From: a bacterium
Lineage (GTDB): Bacteria; Vulcanimicrobiota; Xenobia; Xenobiales; JADMJV01
Assembly (NCBI GenBank): GCA_030149525.1
Contig: JASBRJ010000247.1
Span: forward strand, 1 to 64,000
Direction: 5' to 3'
Length of the DNA stretch: 64,000 bases
Position numbers and translations under genes: made by a program. The notes beneath the pieces are model-generated. The model had not been told where the DNA came from. It did no database searches and worked only from the letters and a program-made list of their open reading frames with translations. This document shows positions 23,996-49,902 of this stretch, piece by piece. How positions within the stretch are numbered: position 1 is the stretch's first letter; each line of letters starts with the position of its first letter.

Positions 23996-25072
23996 TTATT
24001 CGGATGAACCGGACTGGTACTTGTGCAAGGTAAACGCTCTTTTACCGGCCAGTACGTCCTCCAGGAAAGCGACCGGGAGTCCCTCCTTAAACTTTCCTTG
24101 AGGGAGTCCCATGGCTTTGGCCTTGTCACGGACCATGGTCATGGTGTCTTTGAAGGCGTTTGTATCCTCAAGGCTTATGCTCGGCATGCTCCGCGCGCTT
24201 TGCAAGCCTTGCTGAAAATTGACTCCGCCTGTTGTCTCCATTCCCATTTCCTTGAAGCCTTGGTTCAGTTGGCCCAGGGCCTGGTTGCGGGCGGTCTGCA
24301 TGTGCTTTGGATCGTTGAGGGCTTCCAGGCGTTTTTTGTTTCCGATTTTGGAGACCAGGGGAGCGTTGGGGAACAAAGCTTTTCGAAGGGGGCCACGGTT
24401 GTTCTTGGCTTCCTGGATTTTGGCACCGGCTATACTGTTGACGGTCTTGTTCTTCTCGGCCGTGAGAGCCGCGTCCATCTGGCCAATGATGTTTTGCCGA
24501 TCTTCAGGAGTCAGGATTCCGTCTTTGCCGGCCATCTTTTTTAATGCGGCCAGACCCTGCTCGGCCCGTTCACGCTCTTTCTTTTCGAAGTCGAATTTCT
24601 GCGTGGCTCCCTGAATCATCTTCGCTCCTTCACCGGAGAAGAGCTTGGAAACTCCGTCGCTCAGGTTGCCCAGTGAGAAGGCTCCTTTATCAGGCTGTTT
24701 TTCATCGGCCGGGTTTGGAGCGGGTTGGCTTTTCTCAGCCTTTTCGGTTCCCCCGAACATATTACTAAATAAGCTCTCCGCTTTTTGTTTTGCGGCTGAC
24801 TCTTCGGAGGGTTTGGATGCCCCGGCCGTTCCAGATCTTACTCCTTGGTCTGCTTGAGATACGGGCTTTGTGGTGGACTGACTTTGGCCACTTTGCCGGG
24901 TCTGACTGGATTGACTGGTCTGAGTGACACTCGAAGCTCTATGGGAGTTGCTTGTTTGCGTTTGCCGACGACTCGTTGATTGTTGTCGAGTGCGAGATGA
25001 TTGACTTCTCGAACTTGTTCGCCTTCCCCTAAAAAGTCGACTTCCTGCTCCACTTTGCCTCAATCTTCCCAT
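23996..25072 (-). CDS. Ser/Gln/Thr/Arg-rich disordered protein with helical C-terminal half
   Basis: 358 residues and no recognised family. Residues 1-100 are almost entirely Ser, Gln, Thr and Arg with many short repeats. A polar linker follows, then a predicted helical, mixed-charge domain from about 150 to the end. No signal peptide. The ATG has GGAG 8 nt upstream; a GTG two codons earlier is too close to the SD. Codon usage is similar to its neighbours. Its polar N-terminus resembles in style those of the nearby SecA-like, barrel and peptidoglycan-hydrolase proteins. Function unknown. Confidence 0.7.
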   Translation of the reverse strand: MGRLRQSGAGSRLFRGRRTSSRSQSSRTRQQSTSRRQTQTSNSHRASSVTQTSQSSQTRQSGQSQSTTKPVSQADQGVRSGTAGASKPSEESAAKQKAESLFSNMFGGTEKAEKSQPAPNPADEKQPDKGAFSLGNLSDGVSKLFSGEGAKMIQGATQKFDFEKKERERAEQGLAALKKMAGKDGILTPEDRQNIIGQMDAALTAEKNKTVNSIAGAKIQEAKNNRGPLRKALFPNAPLVSKIGNKKRLEALNDPKHMQTARNQALGQLNQGFKEMGMETTGGVNFQQGLQSARSMPSISLEDTNAFKDTMTMVRDKAKAMGLPQGKFKEGLPVAFLEDVLAGKRAFTLHKYQSGSSE

Positions 25073-25244
25073 ACACACTTCTCCGTTTCGATATCTTCTC
25101 GCCTATAGTGTGCGCCCGAAGGAAGCCGTTGGGAAGAGCCGTTTTGTTAAATGTAAAGGGAGGGAGGTTGAGATTTCGAGAACGAAAAAAACTGAAAATT
25201 TCATACTCAACACTCAGTTGAGTGCAAAAGTTCACAAGAAGGTA

Positions 25245-26613: not shown

Positions 26614-29600
26614 TTAAGCGTTAATGAGTGCGGCGGCCGGCAAAATCTGGGCTGCCACATTCGCCTGGTAGTTGGTGAGGCTTGCCTGGAACGTCTCCAT
26701 GGCGCGACGAGGGAAAACCAACTCGGGTTTTTCTTGAGCGTATCCAACCAGGTGGATACCGTCCTGCAACTCATCCATCATCTCTAGATGATCCACCCAG
26801 GCCAAATCCATCTGCCGAAGGACGTTGGCTCGAAGAGTATCTGGAACGATACGCTTCGCGCTGAGCATCTTCTCAATAGAGGGGTAGAATGCCGCCGCTA
26901 CATCCTCTGCGGCGATCTTCTGCTTGGCTTTCACCGACTCAGGCAGTTGCAGATTTTTCTGCAAAGCCTCTCTGTATTGAACCAGGGCGGTCTCCCGTTG
27001 CTCCTCAGGCACTCGCGAGGCAGACTGGGTGGCGAGTTCTTCGGCCAGAGAGGCCACGGCTGCTTCCAGTTCTTGAGGAGTGTAGCTCTTCTTCTGCTCA
27101 AGACGGTTGTTGAGGATGGAGCCCAGACCAAGCGCAGCGGTTTCGCTGGAATATTCCACAATATTGTTTTCACCGGTCAGCACGGAGTCACGCATGGCAT
27201 ACCAGGTCTCCCTCTGCTGCTTATGGGTGTCTCGATACTTCGAGGCGTTGTTGCGCTGCTCGATATGCATGTTCTCGATACTCTGTTGAGCGCTGTCGAG
27301 CACGTTGTTGACAACGCCGCTCTTCACGCCCTCCTGAGCGTTACCGAACATGTCAAGGAGAGGTTCCAGCTTTTCCCCACCGTAGATCCTGGGGATCTCG
27401 TCTTCTAGGGAGAGAAAGAATACGCTATCGCCTTCGGCCCCCTGACGACCGGACCGCCCGATAAGCTGGTCGTCGATTCTTCTTGAAGTTGCTCTCTCGG
27501 TGCCGATGACCAGGAGTCCTCCGGTACGGTAGTCGTTACCGTCGATATGAGTTCCCTCGGCCACCGCAGGTAATTCTTTGCCGTAACGCACAAGAACTTT
27601 TCCCGCCTCAGGTTTTGCATCCGGTTGGTCGGTGAGAGAGACGGGCACGATATCCTTGAGGAAGCGGGCTACCTTGTCTGCCTGAGACTTTTTGTCGAGA
27701 GAGAGAACGACAGCTTCACCACCGCTGGCTTTTTCGTAAGCCAACTCGGACATGGCATCGGTGTTGATCAGATCGGGTTTGATGTTGGCTCCGCGACCGG
27801 CCATATTGGTTGCCACTGTGATCATTCCGGATCGACCTGCCATCTCGATCATAACGTTTTCTTTCTCTTTGCCCTCACACACCATTGGAAGTGCTTCCAG
27901 GCCAAGGCCGTGATCGAGAAGTTTCTCTGCGGTAGAGCCGAGCTGCTTGGTTGTCGCAGACTCAAGAATGACCGGGTCACCTTCCTGCATGGCTTGCAGA
28001 GCTTTAGCAACGACCTCGTCTTCGTTTTCTTCGCCCACCTTGAATAAGAGAGGCTTATCCACTTTGAACTGCTCGGTGGAAAGATGAAGGAAGCCTTCGG
28101 GCGGGCCGCTCTGACCAGGTTTCTTCACACGGATCTGAATGGGAGCGTCAAGATGAGAGCCTGGCTTGTCGGTGATGGGAGCCTGGACTTCTCCGGCGCC
28201 CAACCAGGCTTGTACATGCTCTGCGTCGTGGGCGCTACCAACCTCAATAAGCATGGGCTTTCGCTGTTGAGAAACCGTATCGATGGCGGTGAAAGCAAGC
28301 TTCTTATAGTTGACTTTATCGTAGTTTACCAGCTTGGCCCTGTCTCCGGTGGTCAGGGTAATGGAACCACTTCGCCCCGCATTCTGGTCGTGGGAATCCT
28401 CTCCACCTTTGACCGTTTCCGCATTGAGAATTTGAATCTTGTCGTGGGGCCATCCGGCGTTGAGCAGGCGTGCGGCCACATCTCGATTGGAGTTGACGGA
28501 AATCGTTCCGATGAGCACCGGGCGTCCGCCGTTGGCGGATTTCATGGCTTCCTCGACCACCTTCTGGAACTTGGCTTCTTTGGTGGCGAAGACAACATCG
28601 GTGTGGTCTTTACGAATGACCGGCTTGTTGGTGGGTATCTGGACCACATCGAGACCGTAAGTCTCGATGAACTCTCCTTCGGAGGTCTTGGCGGTTCCGG
28701 TCATACCGGCTTTACGCTCGTAGAGGCCTACCAACTCCGGCATAGTGATTTTCGAAACTGTTCGGGTTTCGCTTCGAGGCGCCAGGCCTTCTTTCACTTC
28801 CAGCGCCTGATGCAGTCCCTGGCTGAAACGCTTCCCGTCGGAGACGCGCCCCTTGTTGGTGTCGACGATTTTGACCTCGCCGTCTTCCACCGTGTAGTCC
28901 TTGCCTCGCTCGAAGAGAGTCATAGCTTTCAGGGAGGCCATCAGATAGGGCAAACGATGATCGTTTTCCAGCTCGTAAAGGTTGTAGACCGGACCTTCCT
29001 GGGCAAGCTTCTCTCGAGCCTCGGTGGCTTTGGCAAGTTCTGCTTCGGCTTTTTTCGCCGACTCGGGATCATACTCTCCATTGCGTCCCACGGCGCGGGC
29101 CAGGAGGTTGGGCTTGACCTCTTCCATCTTATCGACTCTGAGACGAGCCTGGCTTTCTTTGCGAAGCGCTGCTCGCATGGTGTTGGCAAAGTTGATATCC
29201 TTGGCGGCCTGAGCCGCATCTTCACTCCCGGGCGGAGCTGCTTTGAGTTTTGCCTGAGCCTCGTAAAATACGATCTCATTTTCCACGAAGCGAAGCCCGT
29301 CTTCGGTGAGCCAGGTAGTACGCTTCTCTTCGTTAATCTTGAAGTCAGTGGAATCGTCGAGCTTTTTTACGATGTGTCCGAAGAGGCGATAGTCGGAAGA
29401 AGCCTCGCCCGCCTTGCCCGACATAATCATGGGAGTTCGCGCTTCATCGATCAGCACTTCGTCCACCTCATCGATGAGAGCGAAGAAATGGCCCCGCTGA
29501 ACTCGATCTTCGGGTCGATAAGCTTGTTGGTCTCTGAGGTAGTCGAAGCCCAGAGCCCGGTCGCTGACGTAAGTCACATCGCAATTATAGTTGGCGCGCT

Positions 29601-30519
29601 TTTCCGCCGGTTGTTGATCTTCGGTGACGCACCCTACCGTCATGCCGAGTCGCTCAAAGATCGGGCCCATCCACTCCGAGTCTCTTTTGGCCAAAGGCTC
29701 GTTGACAGTGACCAGATGTGCGCCTTTTCCGGCCAGGGCGTTCAGGTAAAGAGGAAGGACCGCCGTTAGAGTTTTACCCTCGCCGGTGCGCATCTCCGCG
29801 ATATGGCTGTCGTCCATAGCGAGGGCTCCCAGCACCTGGCAGTCGTAGGCTCGCATGCCGGTGGCCTGCCGAGCGGCCTCTCTGGCTACGGCGTAGGCTT
29901 CGGGTCGGAGTTTTTCAAGGCTCTCTCCCGCTTCGAGTCTTTGCTTGAACTCTGCTGTTTTGGCGGCAAACTGCTCCGGTGTCTGAAGCGCTCTAGCTTT
30001 TTCTTCCAGGCTGTTGATAGCGTTGAGCTCTTTTCGAAAAGGCGCGAGCTGATCTCCCAAAAATACCTGGGCTAGACCTCGTCCGATAGCCCCTGTAGCG
30101 CTTCGCGCTGCCTCGGCTAGTGTAAAGCCCTCTTTTTTCTCAGGAGCCGGGTCTTCAAAAATGGTGAGATTGCCGGTTGGCCCTTGGGTTGATGCACTCA
30201 ATTTGGGGCCGGACACCATCATTTCGGGTGTCAGAAGAAGCGGTCCGTTCGCACTCCCGGTGTCCACTCTCATCTCGGGGGTTAACAAAAGCGGGGAGTT
30301 GTCCGGAGCTTTTCGGTTAGCCGGTTGCGGTTGTTCGGCTTGGAATTTGGCCGACTCCCGGGGAGATGGCCCTTCCGCAGGGAGAGCGGTTGTTTGGAAA
30401 GAGTCCACCGCAGAGTTGTCCTGCACAACCTCCGGGCTCTTAACCGGCTTCCTTGGCGACAAGGCTCCGATCTGCTGCTTGGAGATCGGCCCTCCGCTAC
30501 CTGTGACCTGTGGCTTCAC
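26614..30519 (-). CDS. Giant divergent SecA-like translocation ATPase (1301 residues)
   Basis: Length is about 1.5 times normal SecA. Residues 1-130 are a disordered Pro/Ser-rich extension with two PLLLTPEM repeats (76-83, 93-100). The SecA motor follows: Walker A RTGEGKT (244-250); DEVDEVLIDEARTP (350-363) where SecA usually has DEVDSILIDEARTP; a PPXD-like region to about 600; GMTGTAKTSEGEF (605-617); TNMAGRG (904-910); GTERATSRRIDDQ (1006-1018); GRSGRQG (1021-1027). The helical scaffold around AWVDHLEMMDELQDGIHLVG is present and the C-terminal zinc/SecB-binding tail is absent, as in SecA2 proteins. Motor domain 2 contains a duplicated segment of about 180 residues (see findings). GTG start, leaderless promoter. 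Confidence 0.9.
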   Translation of the reverse strand: MKPQVTGSGGPISKQQIGALSPRKPVKSPEVVQDNSAVDSFQTTALPAEGPSPRESAKFQAEQPQPANRKAPDNSPLLLTPEMRVDTGSANGPLLLTPEMMVSGPKLSASTQGPTGNLTIFEDPAPEKKEGFTLAEAARSATGAIGRGLAQVFLGDQLAPFRKELNAINSLEEKARALQTPEQFAAKTAEFKQRLEAGESLEKLRPEAYAVAREAARQATGMRAYDCQVLGALAMDDSHIAEMRTGEGKTLTAVLPLYLNALAGKGAHLVTVNEPLAKRDSEWMGPIFERLGMTVGCVTEDQQPAEKRANYNCDVTYVSDRALGFDYLRDQQAYRPEDRVQRGHFFALIDEVDEVLIDEARTPMIMSGKAGEASSDYRLFGHIVKKLDDSTDFKINEEKRTTWLTEDGLRFVENEIVFYEAQAKLKAAPPGSEDAAQAAKDINFANTMRAALRKESQARLRVDKMEEVKPNLLARAVGRNGEYDPESAKKAEAELAKATEAREKLAQEGPVYNLYELENDHRLPYLMASLKAMTLFERGKDYTVEDGEVKIVDTNKGRVSDGKRFSQGLHQALEVKEGLAPRSETRTVSKITMPELVGLYERKAGMTGTAKTSEGEFIETYGLDVVQIPTNKPVIRKDHTDVVFATKEAKFQKVVEEAMKSANGGRPVLIGTISVNSNRDVAARLLNAGWPHDKIQILNAETVKGGEDSHDQNAGRSGSITLTTGDRAKLVNYDKVNYKKLAFTAIDTVSQQRKPMLIEVGSAHDAEHVQAWLGAGEVQAPITDKPGSHLDAPIQIRVKKPGQSGPPEGFLHLSTEQFKVDKPLLFKVGEENEDEVVAKALQAMQEGDPVILESATTKQLGSTAEKLLDHGLGLEALPMVCEGKEKENVMIEMAGRSGMITVATNMAGRGANIKPDLINTDAMSELAYEKASGGEAVVLSLDKKSQADKVARFLKDIVPVSLTDQPDAKPEAGKVLVRYGKELPAVAEGTHIDGNDYRTGGLLVIGTERATSRRIDDQLIGRSGRQGAEGDSVFFLSLEDEIPRIYGGEKLEPLLDMFGNAQEGVKSGVVNNVLDSAQQSIENMHIEQRNNASKYRDTHKQQRETWYAMRDSVLTGENNIVEYSSETAALGLGSILNNRLEQKKSYTPQELEAAVASLAEELATQSASRVPEEQRETALVQYREALQKNLQLPESVKAKQKIAAEDVAAAFYPSIEKMLSAKRIVPDTLRANVLRQMDLAWVDHLEMMDELQDGIHLVGYAQEKPELVFPRRAMETFQASLTNYQANVAAQILPAAALINA
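26622..26672 (-). other. 3' end of the SecA-like gene: no zinc-finger tail
   Basis: The last codons read NVAAQILPAAALINA. There is no C-x-C-x(8)-C-H/C tail, which is the SecB- and lipid-binding end of housekeeping SecA. This supports a specialised, SecA2-like role. Confidence 0.6.
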
Positions 30520-40058: not shown

Positions 40059-40547
40059 CTAGTCGATAATGAAGAGGGGCTGACCCTCTTCTACGGCCTC
40101 GGCATTTTCTACCAAGATCTTGACGATTTTGCAAGGCCGCTCCGCCGTTATCTCATTCATGAGCTTCATGGCTTCAACGATACACAGTGTCTGACCGTTG
40201 CCAACCTGGTCACCCTCTTTTACGAACGCGTCCGCGTCGGGGCGAGGGGAGCGATAAAACACTCCAGCCAGAGGCGAATTGATCGTCTCGCCGGAGGTCG
40301 CAACTCCTCCGTTAGCAGACGGGGCGGGGGCGGCCTGTGGCGCTGCTGCCGGAGGCGCCACCTGATGGGCCGCCGAAAAGCCGGCCGCCGCTAGCAGGGA
40401 GGGGTCGAAGGTGGGCGCGCTTGTGGCAACGGGTGCCTCAAAGGTGATGCGGATCTTGACTTCCGGATCTTCGTATTCTATTTCTGCCAGGTCGTTTTCT
40501 CGTCCGATGCGCGCGAGTTCCTCAGCAGTGGTGATGGATTTATCCAA
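40059..40547 (-). CDS. accB: Biotin carboxyl carrier protein of acetyl-CoA carboxylase
   Basis: 162 residues. An N-terminal dimerisation region (1-40) is followed by an Ala/Pro linker (about 38-85) and a biotinyl domain (86-162) with K128 in [10 protein letters not shown] as the biotin site and a thumb-like [16 protein letters not shown] segment. It carries carboxybiotin between AccC and AccAD for malonyl-CoA synthesis. TTG start with AGAGG 7 nt upstream. accC, the usual neighbour, is not here; instead it lies between hisS and an ABC exporter. Confidence 0.95.
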
Positions 40548-40617: not shown

Positions 40618-42453
40618 TTAACTCTCTTCCTTGCCGGGTAAGATGGACCAGTTCAGCCCACCGGTTGGTGCCGCAGCAGCAGGGGTGGCCGCAGTCGTTT
40701 TTCGCCGACTGGGCTTCGCCTTCTCCGACTTGGCCTTGGATGCTTCAGGTGCGGAACTTCCACCCAACCCGAAGACAGGAACGATAGCTTTGCCCAGGTC
40801 GCCATCCGCTTTGGCTGCAGGCTTCTCGGTTTTGCCGGCGTCACTGCTGCTTTTGCTGCGGCTAGTCCGCCGGCTCCTGGATTTGGAGGCTCTCGAGGAG
40901 GTGTCGTTCTCAGAATCGCTCTTCTCGGGCTTTGCCTCTTTTGTCTTGCGGCCGGTGTCGCGTTCCTTATCTCGGTCTCTATCCCGATCCCGATCTCGAT
41001 CTCTGTCCCTATCTCTGTCTTTGTCGTCTGAATTTCTGGATCTTCTGCCTTTGGAACGGGAACGTTTGGAGCGGGAATCGTCTTTTTCTTCCCTTTCCTC
41101 GCGGTTGCTCTTCTCGTCTTCTTTGTTGCTGCCGGTCTCTTCGCTTCGACGGCGTCCACGGCGCAGTTTTTTGCGCCCACTCTTAGAACCGTCACGCTCT
41201 TCATCTTTGCCGACCCCGGCTACGTGAAGCACGCGGTTTCGCAGTCGTGAGACGGGAACCCGCTCTTCGGAGTTGTCCTCAAGATCTTTCAACACGGCGT
41301 TGCCGCGAAAGGCGTTGCTCTCATCCAGAGTGACAATCCAAGAGTAATCTCCACTGCTGTCTTTACTGCGGCGCCCATTACCGAAGGAGTAGTCCAACTC
41401 GGCCGAGATCCCACGCTGACGTAAAGTGTAGAGCAGAGGAACGAGCAGCTTGGCCGATTCTGGACCCTCGGGGCGCAGGAGAAGATCGATCTTCTGGTTT
41501 TCACTCACCTCTTCGGGCTTGAGCAGCTCAAGAATGGCCTCCAAAGAGAAGGCGAAACCGACGGCAGGAGTAGCTTTGCCGCCCAATTTTTCGACCAGAT
41601 TGTCGTACCGTCCGCCGAAGCCGAGGCTTTTGCCCTGACATCGAATTTCAAAGACGGTACCGTTGTAGTACTCTGAATCTCTTACCACCCGTGGGTCGAG
41701 TTCTACCGGCAGTTCCATCTCTTGAAGATATTCTCTCAACTGGGCGAAGTGGGTTCTGGCGTCGTTGGTCAGCATGCCATAGATGGTTGGCGCCACTTGC
41801 GACAGTGATTTGCACTCTTTTTCTTCGCAGGACAGGACCCAGTCAGGGTTGGCTTTGTACTTTCGTTTACAGGTGGCGCAAAGTTGAGAATTGTGAGCCC
41901 CAAAGTAATCCTTGAGCTTCTGCAGATACTCTTCTCGACACTCTTTGCTTCCCAGGGAATTGAGACGAATGGTGAAGTCTTCCAAGCCCATCCCCTCGCA
42001 AAAAGCGGCTGCCAGTGCGATGACTTCAGCGTCCAGGGCTGGATTCTCGGAGCCGATAGCTTCAAAGCCGAATTGATGACTCTGACGAGAACGGGTGTCC
42101 CCTTCTTTGCCCAGCAAGAAAACCGGAGCTAAATAGAAGACTTTCAGCGGAAGCTTGGTGTTGTAGAGCTTGTTTTGCTGATAAGCACGGATGATCCCTG
42201 TGGTGGCGTCTGTTCTTAGAGCCAGTTTTTGACCGAATTTATCCTGGAATGTCCAAAGCTCTTTTTCGATCAGACCGGACATGACACCCATGCCGCGGGT
42301 GAAGAGTTCCGCCTGTTCGAACAGCGGAGTTCGAATCTCCTTGTAGCCGAACCTTTGCGCAAGATCGCGGGACGTTTCTTCCACAGAGTGCCACTGAGAC
42401 ACCTGGCCGGGTAGTACGTCAAAGGTCCCGCGGACAGCTTGATAGCGAGCCAT
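40618..42453 (-). CDS. hisS: Histidyl-tRNA synthetase with Arg/Asp- and Ser/Arg-rich C-terminal extension
   Basis: Residues 1 to about 425 are a complete class II HisRS: motif 1 region, ALRTDATTGIIRAY (motif 2), a four-Cys insertion (CATC ... CEEKEC), GGRYDNLVEKLGG and a C-terminal anticodon-binding domain ending near SRLRNRVL. About 185 extra residues follow: first Lys/Arg/Glu-rich, then about nine Asp-Arg dipeptides in a row, then Ser/Arg-rich and Ala/Lys/Pro-rich segments, ending GGLNWSILPGKEES. Such a tail is not a normal HisRS part. GAGG lies 7 nt before the ATG. A T-box-like leader precedes it. Confidence 0.93.
   Translation of the reverse strand: MARYQAVRGTFDVLPGQVSQWHSVEETSRDLAQRFGYKEIRTPLFEQAELFTRGMGVMSGLIEKELWTFQDKFGQKLALRTDATTGIIRAYQQNKLYNTKLPLKVFYLAPVFLLGKEGDTRSRQSHQFGFEAIGSENPALDAEVIALAAAFCEGMGLEDFTIRLNSLGSKECREEYLQKLKDYFGAHNSQLCATCKRKYKANPDWVLSCEEKECKSLSQVAPTIYGMLTNDARTHFAQLREYLQEMELPVELDPRVVRDSEYYNGTVFEIRCQGKSLGFGGRYDNLVEKLGGKATPAVGFAFSLEAILELLKPEEVSENQKIDLLLRPEGPESAKLLVPLLYTLRQRGISAELDYSFGNGRRSKDSSGDYSWIVTLDESNAFRGNAVLKDLEDNSEERVPVSRLRNRVLHVAGVGKDEERDGSKSGRKKLRRGRRRSEETGSNKEDEKSNREEREEKDDSRSKRSRSKGRRSRNSDDKDRDRDRDRDRDRDRDRDKERDTGRKTKEAKPEKSDSENDTSSRASKSRSRRTSRSKSSSDAGKTEKPAAKADGDLGKAIVPVFGLGGSSAPEASKAKSEKAKPSRRKTTAATPAAAAPTGGLNWSILPGKEES
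40966..41035 (-). repeat. Asp-Arg dipeptide repeat inside hisS
   Basis: Codes for about nine consecutive Asp-Arg pairs. The DNA uses mixed codons (GAT/GAC with CGA, CGG, AGA, AGG), so the repeat is kept at the protein level and is not a fresh DNA slippage product. Confidence 0.85.
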
Positions 42454-42480
42454 AACTTGACCTCAATTTTCAAAATTTCT

Positions 42481-49548: not shown

Positions 49549-49735
49549 GGACTCGCTTCGCTCGTAACGGTCGCAAGCTCCCTTTCGAACCTGAACCACT
49601 TCGTGGTTGGTGTCCTCGGCCTGAAGGCCTGCGGAACGCCTTCGGCTTGCGCTCCCTGGTGTTGGTGTGGTTGCCCATTCTTTTGCATAAAAAAAAGGGA
49701 CCGGATATGGTCCCTCTTTGGTGGAGCTATGCGGG
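49549..49735 (-). repeat. Copy 1 of the 187-bp tandem duplication, including the true tRNA-Ala 3' end
   Basis: The 3' end of tRNA-Ala (49719-49735), terminator (49689-49715), 39-nt spacer and 109-bp element (49550-49658). The element holds small palindromes such as AACCAC-TTC-GTGGTT and GGCCT-GA-AGGCC, suggesting folded RNA or a REP-like sequence. Confidence 0.85.
49689..49715 (-). terminator. Terminator of the tRNA-Ile/tRNA-Ala transcript
   Basis: AGGGACC / GGTCCCT with a 6-nt loop, then eight T on the minus strand, starting 4 nt after the tRNA-Ala CCA. Confidence 0.85.
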
Positions 49736-49794
49736 ATCGAACCGCAGACCTCATGCGTGCAAAGCATGCGCTCTCCCAGCTGAGCTATAGCCCC
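49719..49794 (-). tRNA. tRNA-Ala (anticodon TGC)
   Basis: 76 nt with encoded CCA. On the minus strand the 5' end GGGGCTATAGCTCAG, anticodon loop CTTTGCACG, T loop GGTTCGATCC and 3' end TAGCTCCACCA fold into a standard cloverleaf. It reads GCN Ala codons and is second after tRNA-Ile in the transcript. Confidence 0.96.
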
Positions 49795-49825
49795 AAGCTG
49801 CCTCGCGTTGACGAGGCTCTTGGTC

Positions 49826-49902
49826 TGGTGCGGTTACCAGGACTTGAACCTGGGACCTCATCCTTATCAGGGATGCGCTCTAACCGACTGAGCTATAACC
49901 GC
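49826..49902 (-). tRNA. tRNA-Ile (anticodon GAT)
   Basis: 77 nt with encoded CCA. Minus strand GCGGTTATAGCTCAGTCGG, anticodon loop CTGATAA, GGTTCAAGTCC and TAACCGCACCA. It is separated from tRNA-Ala by a 31-nt spacer that contains the hairpin GCCTCG-cgttga-CGAGGC. The Ile(GAT)-Ala(TGC) order is that of rRNA spacers, but no rRNA gene is in this window. Confidence 0.96.

Follow-up and report, generated by a model that had tools for sequence, protein, structure and literature searches.

A tailed HisRS-like protein, probably a pseudoenzyme, derived from the ancestral hisS in a class of Eremiobacterota

The gene analysed here encodes a protein with a core resembling histidyl-tRNA synthetase (HisRS) and a long arginine-rich tail. 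We read it as the ancestral hisS of its phylum, altered in place, whose product has probably given up charging to a HisRS of another branch. The probability of this class-wide pseudo-HisRS account as a whole is put at about 0.75. Its basis in computation is fivefold: loss of catalytic residues, presence of a second and intact HisRS, descent in place, purifying selection on the core, and a disordered tail. From these we infer loss of activity, RNA binding and a regulatory role.

Gene and HisRS-like core

The window, meaning the whole stretch of 64,000 nucleotides under analysis, carries the gene on its reverse strand as a single uninterrupted frame with no internal stops (Table 1). The protein scores 331.8 bits against TIGR00442 (hisS), above the curated cut-off of 286.75, and its residues up to about aa 405 also match the Pfam model tRNA-synt_His. 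Annotation pipelines would label the gene hisS, and the case stands as a warning for them. The Pfam scan did not reach the threshold for HGTP_anticodon in this protein. Past about aa 321, the predicted structure and a structure comparison indicate a fold like that of full-length HisRS. Prediction with 38 sequences in the alignment gave a mean pLDDT of 91.4 for the core, with HisRSs as the closest solved structures at a TM-score near 0.9; because the alignment includes canonical HisRSs, these values speak for compatibility between sequence and fold and are no proof of the fold. An earlier prediction from 8 sequences modelled the core poorly (mean pLDDT 57). The Rfam search of the window returned no T-box or other leader.

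Table 1. Features of the pseudo-HisRS gene and its surroundings in the window
Feature	Position	Strand	Remarks
accB-like gene directly downstream	40059..40547	(-)	also lies after canonical hisS in other members of the phylum
Pseudo-HisRS ORF	40618..42453	(-)	611 aa plus stop
Disordered R/K/S/D/E-rich tail, about aa 406-611	40621..41238	(-)	composition; pLDDT; tails in all readable class relatives
LNWSI, aa 600-604	40642..40656	(-)	common to 6/6 genomes of family f1
KAIVPVF, aa 555-561	40771..40791	(-)	counterpart of KAFIPSL in other f1 members
Eight consecutive Asp-Arg pairs, aa 479-494	40972..41019	(-)	mixed codons
HisRS-like core, about aa 1-405	41239..42453	(-)	TIGR00442 match aa 5-400; confident fold; nearest solved structures HisRSs
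Degenerate motif 3, aa 297-306 (AVGFAFSLEA)	41536..41565	(-)	E. coli R311 -> A
Altered HisA motif, aa 256-263	41665..41688	(-)	VVRDSEYY vs.VRGLDYY
Degenerate motif 2, aa 111-124 (VFLLGKEGDTRSRQ)	42082..42123	(-)	E. coli R113 -> L, E115 -> G
GAGGT	42460..42464	(-)	ribosome-binding-like site ahead of ATG; upstream sequence

Degeneration of the catalytic site

The active site of the core departs from that of HisRS in motif 2, motif 3 and the HisA motif (Table 1). In E. coli numbering, E83 is also replaced by D, a change that would mean little by itself given that second HisRSs carry D as well. R113 and R259 are among the charged residues conserved in all HisRSs, and replacement of R113 by alanine abolishes activity, as cited in the same work (PMC8558854). 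None of the 13 tailed copies from the window's order has R113, E115 or R311. The same three residues are kept in the 15 second HisRS copies of that order and, together with R259, in every canonical relative with a complete site set (12/12).

The window protein retains R259, Q127, E131, the YY pair and GGRYD; its HisA motif nonetheless contains RDSEYY. R259 has been lost in family f4 and in part of f3. In the f4 copies, R113 and R311 remain, R259 is replaced by H, H or N, E270 by Q, and neighbouring residues have changed too. With the arginines of motifs 2 and 3 present, activity of the f4 copies stays conceivable. Families f1 and f2 and some members of f3 retain part of the histidine pocket, whose residues are lost in other members of f3. 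Moreover, a set of residues is fixed specifically in the pseudo-HisRSs (W67, W205, K76, G115/E117/S122, D259/E261 and others). Such fixed replacements suggest an altered yet constrained site, as opposed to one in decay.

It is very unlikely that the window gene product functions as a HisRS in its genome. The original prediction had identified it as one, and this identity is not borne out, with the catalytic arginines gone from the core and an intact HisRS encoded elsewhere in the genome.

A second, intact HisRS

The genome of the window encodes exactly two HisRS-like genes. The second lies on contig C294 and specifies a tailless protein of 439 aa with intact motif residues. Its GC content indicates that the contig fits the same genome (55.7% for C294 vs 55.0% for the window). 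The protein belongs to a different HisRS branch, here called the HisRS2 type, and among solved structures it is closest to 3net, 6nhi and human cytoplasmic HisRS. Charging of tRNA-His is presumably done by this enzyme.

The survey covered 58 Eremiobacterota genomes, namely 18 from the class of the window (probably Xenobia; four families, f1 to f4) and 40 from outside it. The class-level lineages described for the phylum are Eremiobacteria, Xenobia and Eudoremicrobiia (PMC9758169). Each of the 18 class genomes encodes a HisRS2-type enzyme whose motifs are intact, and 17 of these genomes hold the old gene alongside it. All 16 readable copies of the old gene combine a low-complexity tail with catalytic losses; the seventeenth is seen as a contig-edge fragment only, and the class genome with no match to the old gene is 72% complete. 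Outside the class, the HisRS2 type is restricted to two genomes of 40 (G026 and G030). Neither shows a separate canonical hisS, and matches to the window protein land in the HisRS2-type gene itself (G030 is 67% complete). The 38 relatives without HisRS2 carry an ordinary hisS, and the 13 copies that were read are intact and tailless. Among the 58 genomes, none was found to hold a canonical hisS alongside a HisRS2-type gene.

The HisRS2 of f4 is only about 37% identical to that of the window's order, with a long branch between them (L049 and L050 vs L034-L048). Going by this branch, HisRS may possibly have been replaced twice, separately, within the class.

Descent in place and selection

The window gene descends in place from the phylum's ancestral hisS. 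Canonical hisS lies just upstream of accB at six loci of the phylum outside the class (L171, L173-L176, L178), and the tailed gene occupies the same position in f1, f4 and part of f3. Since this linkage is found both in and outside the class, the original hisS is the tailed gene, and the untailed gene arrived later. The other flank of the tailed gene in the window's order consists of pdp, pnp and ftsA. The tree groups the tailed copies from the window's order into one fully supported clade on a long stem (0.86 changes per site). It also contains a moderately supported branch (68/90) that has every tailed copy on the same side. A scan of genome contigs with the window protein as single query found no relative. 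When the class alignment was used, the best four matches were class members (Eremiobacterota bin.189, CPR1, SZAS-1 and MAG_50); the remaining matches were of Bacillota type, and those read were ordinary tailless HisRSs.

The core is under strong purifying selection, and the gene is no relic. Across five close f1 pairs and one f3 pair, Nei-Gojobori estimates of dN/dS were 0.03-0.09 in the core and 0.07-0.32 in the tail; the second HisRS of the same genome pairs gave 0.03-0.11. These values are approximate, given the simplicity of the estimator and the high dS of several pairs.

The arginine-rich disordered tail

The tail comprises 206 aa, with 16% R, 15% S, 13% K, 11% D and 9% E. Hydrophobic residues make up 7% of it compared with 34% of the core, and its net charge is +19 compared with -6. 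Predicted pLDDT stays below 50 across aa 416-611. In a comparison of 79 long ORFs, drawn from the window and from two further contigs of its genome, the 100-aa stretch richest in R, K, D, E and S lies in the tail. The original prediction of a low-complexity tail thus holds up in composition, in predicted disorder and in protein-level conservation across the class, and SKSRSRRTSRSKSSS and GGLNWSILPGKEES both occur in the tail exactly as given there. The Asp-Arg repeat that it described is also present as a long run, though the longest has eight pairs instead of the nine or so described. Shuffling the tail letters 20,000 times never produced an Asp-Arg run of more than 3 pairs. The mixed codon use attributed to the repeat was confirmed, with four codons for Arg and both for Asp.

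The best available evidence that the tail may be translated is its class-wide conservation as a property, together with purifying selection in close pairs. Judged on composition, RNA binding or condensate formation by the tail appears plausible. No convincing tail homolog was found in the own genome apart from the hisS-like gene, and a search of five class genomes with the tail of a relative gave nothing convincing beyond that gene. Another low-complexity stretch occurs elsewhere in the window, in an ORF at 23996-25078 (-) whose first 100 or so residues are rich in Ser, Arg, Gln and Thr.

Tails are present in 16/16 readable class copies and measure 213-607 residues, with one copy reaching its contig end after 98. 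In the 13 same-phylum relatives read outside the class, the protein stops 15-26 residues past the same point. The scenario in which relatives end at the anticodon domain describes the rest of the phylum, which is tailless, and fails inside the class, where tails are kept. Composition varies by family. Tails of f1 are built on Arg-Glu/Asp and poly-Arg, those of f2 are Arg-rich with tyrosine, and those of f4 combine Arg-Glu with a basic end. In f3, poly-Arg and Ser occur in part, and the small-genome members have Ser-rich, near-neutral tails with 9-12% Arg. Tyrosine plus arginine or serine is abundant in the tails of some relatives (L005 739-2934; L025 1489-3681), a make-up often associated with phase separation.

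A conserved end had been proposed for the last 15 residues, and this stands in part. LNWSI is shared by all six f1 genomes, as is KA[FI][IV]P upstream of it. In the other five f1 genomes, LNWSI lies about 30-40 residues before the end and is not terminal there, and neither motif was seen in the other three families of the class. A shared docking role for LNWSI in the own genome is unsupported, the corresponding DNA pattern giving three matches (one of them the window gene) against one in a reversed control.

Candidate function and alternative readings

The pseudo-HisRS account can be laid out as a sequence of putative steps. A HisRS of another branch would have taken over tRNA-His charging. 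After or during this takeover, the ancestral hisS would have lost the residues needed to make histidyl-adenylate, and its product would have gained a long low-complexity tail or already had one. The class II fold may still dimerise and recognise tRNA or, in part of the class, histidine. The Arg-rich tail may bind RNA and so keep the protein at tRNA, ribosomes or RNA-protein assemblies. The protein could then regulate or scaffold translation by binding RNA, with no catalytic role of its own. We hold this assignment as an RNA- or tRNA-binding regulator or scaffold only tentatively.

A more specific alternative, possible but doubtful, is a sensor resembling the HisRS-like domain of GCN2. Here, a GCN2-like device would have evolved independently in a bacterial class: the displaced ancestral HisRS would bind uncharged tRNA (or histidine) without catalysis and would signal to translation or RNA through its disordered Arg-rich tail or through a partner protein. 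HisRS-like domains have been reused for uncharged tRNA sensing in GCN2 (PMC4335047), and by analogy the window protein may likewise sense rather than charge. The strong constraint on the core and the partly kept histidine pocket of f1, f2 and part of f3 favor such a role. The window protein lacks an effector domain, however, including any kinase match in Pfam, and unlike GCN2 it is free-standing, bacterial and derived from the phylum's own hisS. Histidine sensing may be possible in the genome of the window, where Q127, E131, R259, the YY pair and GGRYD are kept. It is not the shared function, because pocket residues are lost in part of f3.

It is quite unlikely that the protein still works as a HisRS to which an RNA-binding tail has been added, with the second HisRS as a spare or specialist copy. 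The window protein and HisRS (TIGR00442) share fold, insertion domain, position of the anticodon domain and the ancestral locus adjoining accB, and HisRSs are its best sequence and structure matches; the TIGR00442 score and the retained residues of the window protein (R259, Q127, E131, YY pair, GGRYD) point the same way. On the other hand, the window protein differs in lacking E115 and the arginines of motifs 2 and 3, losses that run throughout the window's order, in its altered HisA motif and in its tail of about 200 residues. Every class genome, moreover, has a second HisRS with intact motifs, and G026 and G030 manage outside the class with a HisRS2-type enzyme alone.

The protein might instead act on the product of an adjacent metabolic gene, regulating or scaffolding the nucleoside phosphorylase or the biotin carrier AccB much as HisZ regulates HisG. 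The order of pnp, pdp and the gene is conserved in the window's order, and accB follows downstream in f1, f4 and part of f3. No adjacent pdp or pnp was found for the f4 copies, however, and the accB link is older than the loss of catalysis, so that the change is matched by neither neighbour. This reading is improbable.

The chance that the gene is a decaying relic kept by accident, with the tail as a by-product of drift, is very slim: catalytic residues are lost and tail composition differs between families, yet the core dN/dS is as low as that of intact HisRS, the frame is intact in every readable copy of all four families, and new residues are fixed in the old active site.

Identity as HisZ, the regulatory subunit of ATP phosphoribosyltransferase, here with a tail, is ruled out: HisZ is the known non-catalytic HisRS paralog (PMC9437257), and weak matches to HisZ models occur, but the protein reaches only 172.8 bits against TIGR00443 (cut-off 271.65), retains the anticodon-domain region, bears a tail, coexists with a long-form HisG that has HisG_C and needs no HisZ, and is kept in the class even though 14/18 genomes have no HisG match. 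Both proteins would nonetheless be alike in deriving from HisRS and in having no part in charging, as predicted for the window protein. The 14/18 class genomes (G000-G017) without a HisG match suggest histidine auxotrophy or an unrecognised first step. In G020, outside the class, a HisRS-like gene lies just before a HisG without HisG_C match (L055 / L068, G020:C294). This pair is the expected HisZ-HisG arrangement and would offer a useful contrast to the window gene.

Comparison with known systems and relevance

Synthetase-derived pseudoenzymes are already known, and a type like the pseudo-HisRS is undescribed in the literature searched. The search, with most subscription journals outside it, found nothing on HisRS pseudoenzymes or on Arg-rich tails of bacterial synthetases. 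A 2022 review of duplicated tRNA synthetases gives HisZ as the paralog function of HisRS (PMC9437257). The CAAD synthetases of cyanobacteria are comparable in that a tRNA synthetase has there, too, acquired an extra domain in a particular lineage, one able to alter the enzyme's cellular location (PMC4893482). CAAD, however, ties active enzymes to membranes, whereas the tail of the window protein is disordered, charged and attached to an inactive-looking core. With eukaryotic RS/RD-repeat proteins, the tail shares Asp-Arg and Arg-Ser low-complexity stretches, and the long stretch that marks membership among them is present in aa 406-611. No homology is claimed. Asp-Arg runs occur in some members of the family only, and other families of the class have poly-Arg, Arg-Glu or Ser/Tyr-rich tails.

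If the pseudo-HisRS account is true, the protein is neither HisZ nor a charging enzyme, and its history would be a new way of reusing a housekeeping enzyme in place once a replacement has freed it. The phylum would provide a natural comparison for this route, with 38 genomes without HisRS2, 17 that keep a tailed paralog in the form of the old gene, and two that have HisRS2 only. The system would also serve as a tractable example, in bacteria, of a tRNA synthetase fold that bears a charged and disordered tail.

Two further features of the window deserve mention. No rRNA match was found in the window, which carries at 49719-49902 (-) a tRNA-Ile(GAT) and tRNA-Ala(TGC) pair of the kind usual in rRNA spacers. 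At 26614-30519 (-), a SecA-like ORF starts with low-complexity sequence and, at 1301 aa, is longer than expected of SecA.
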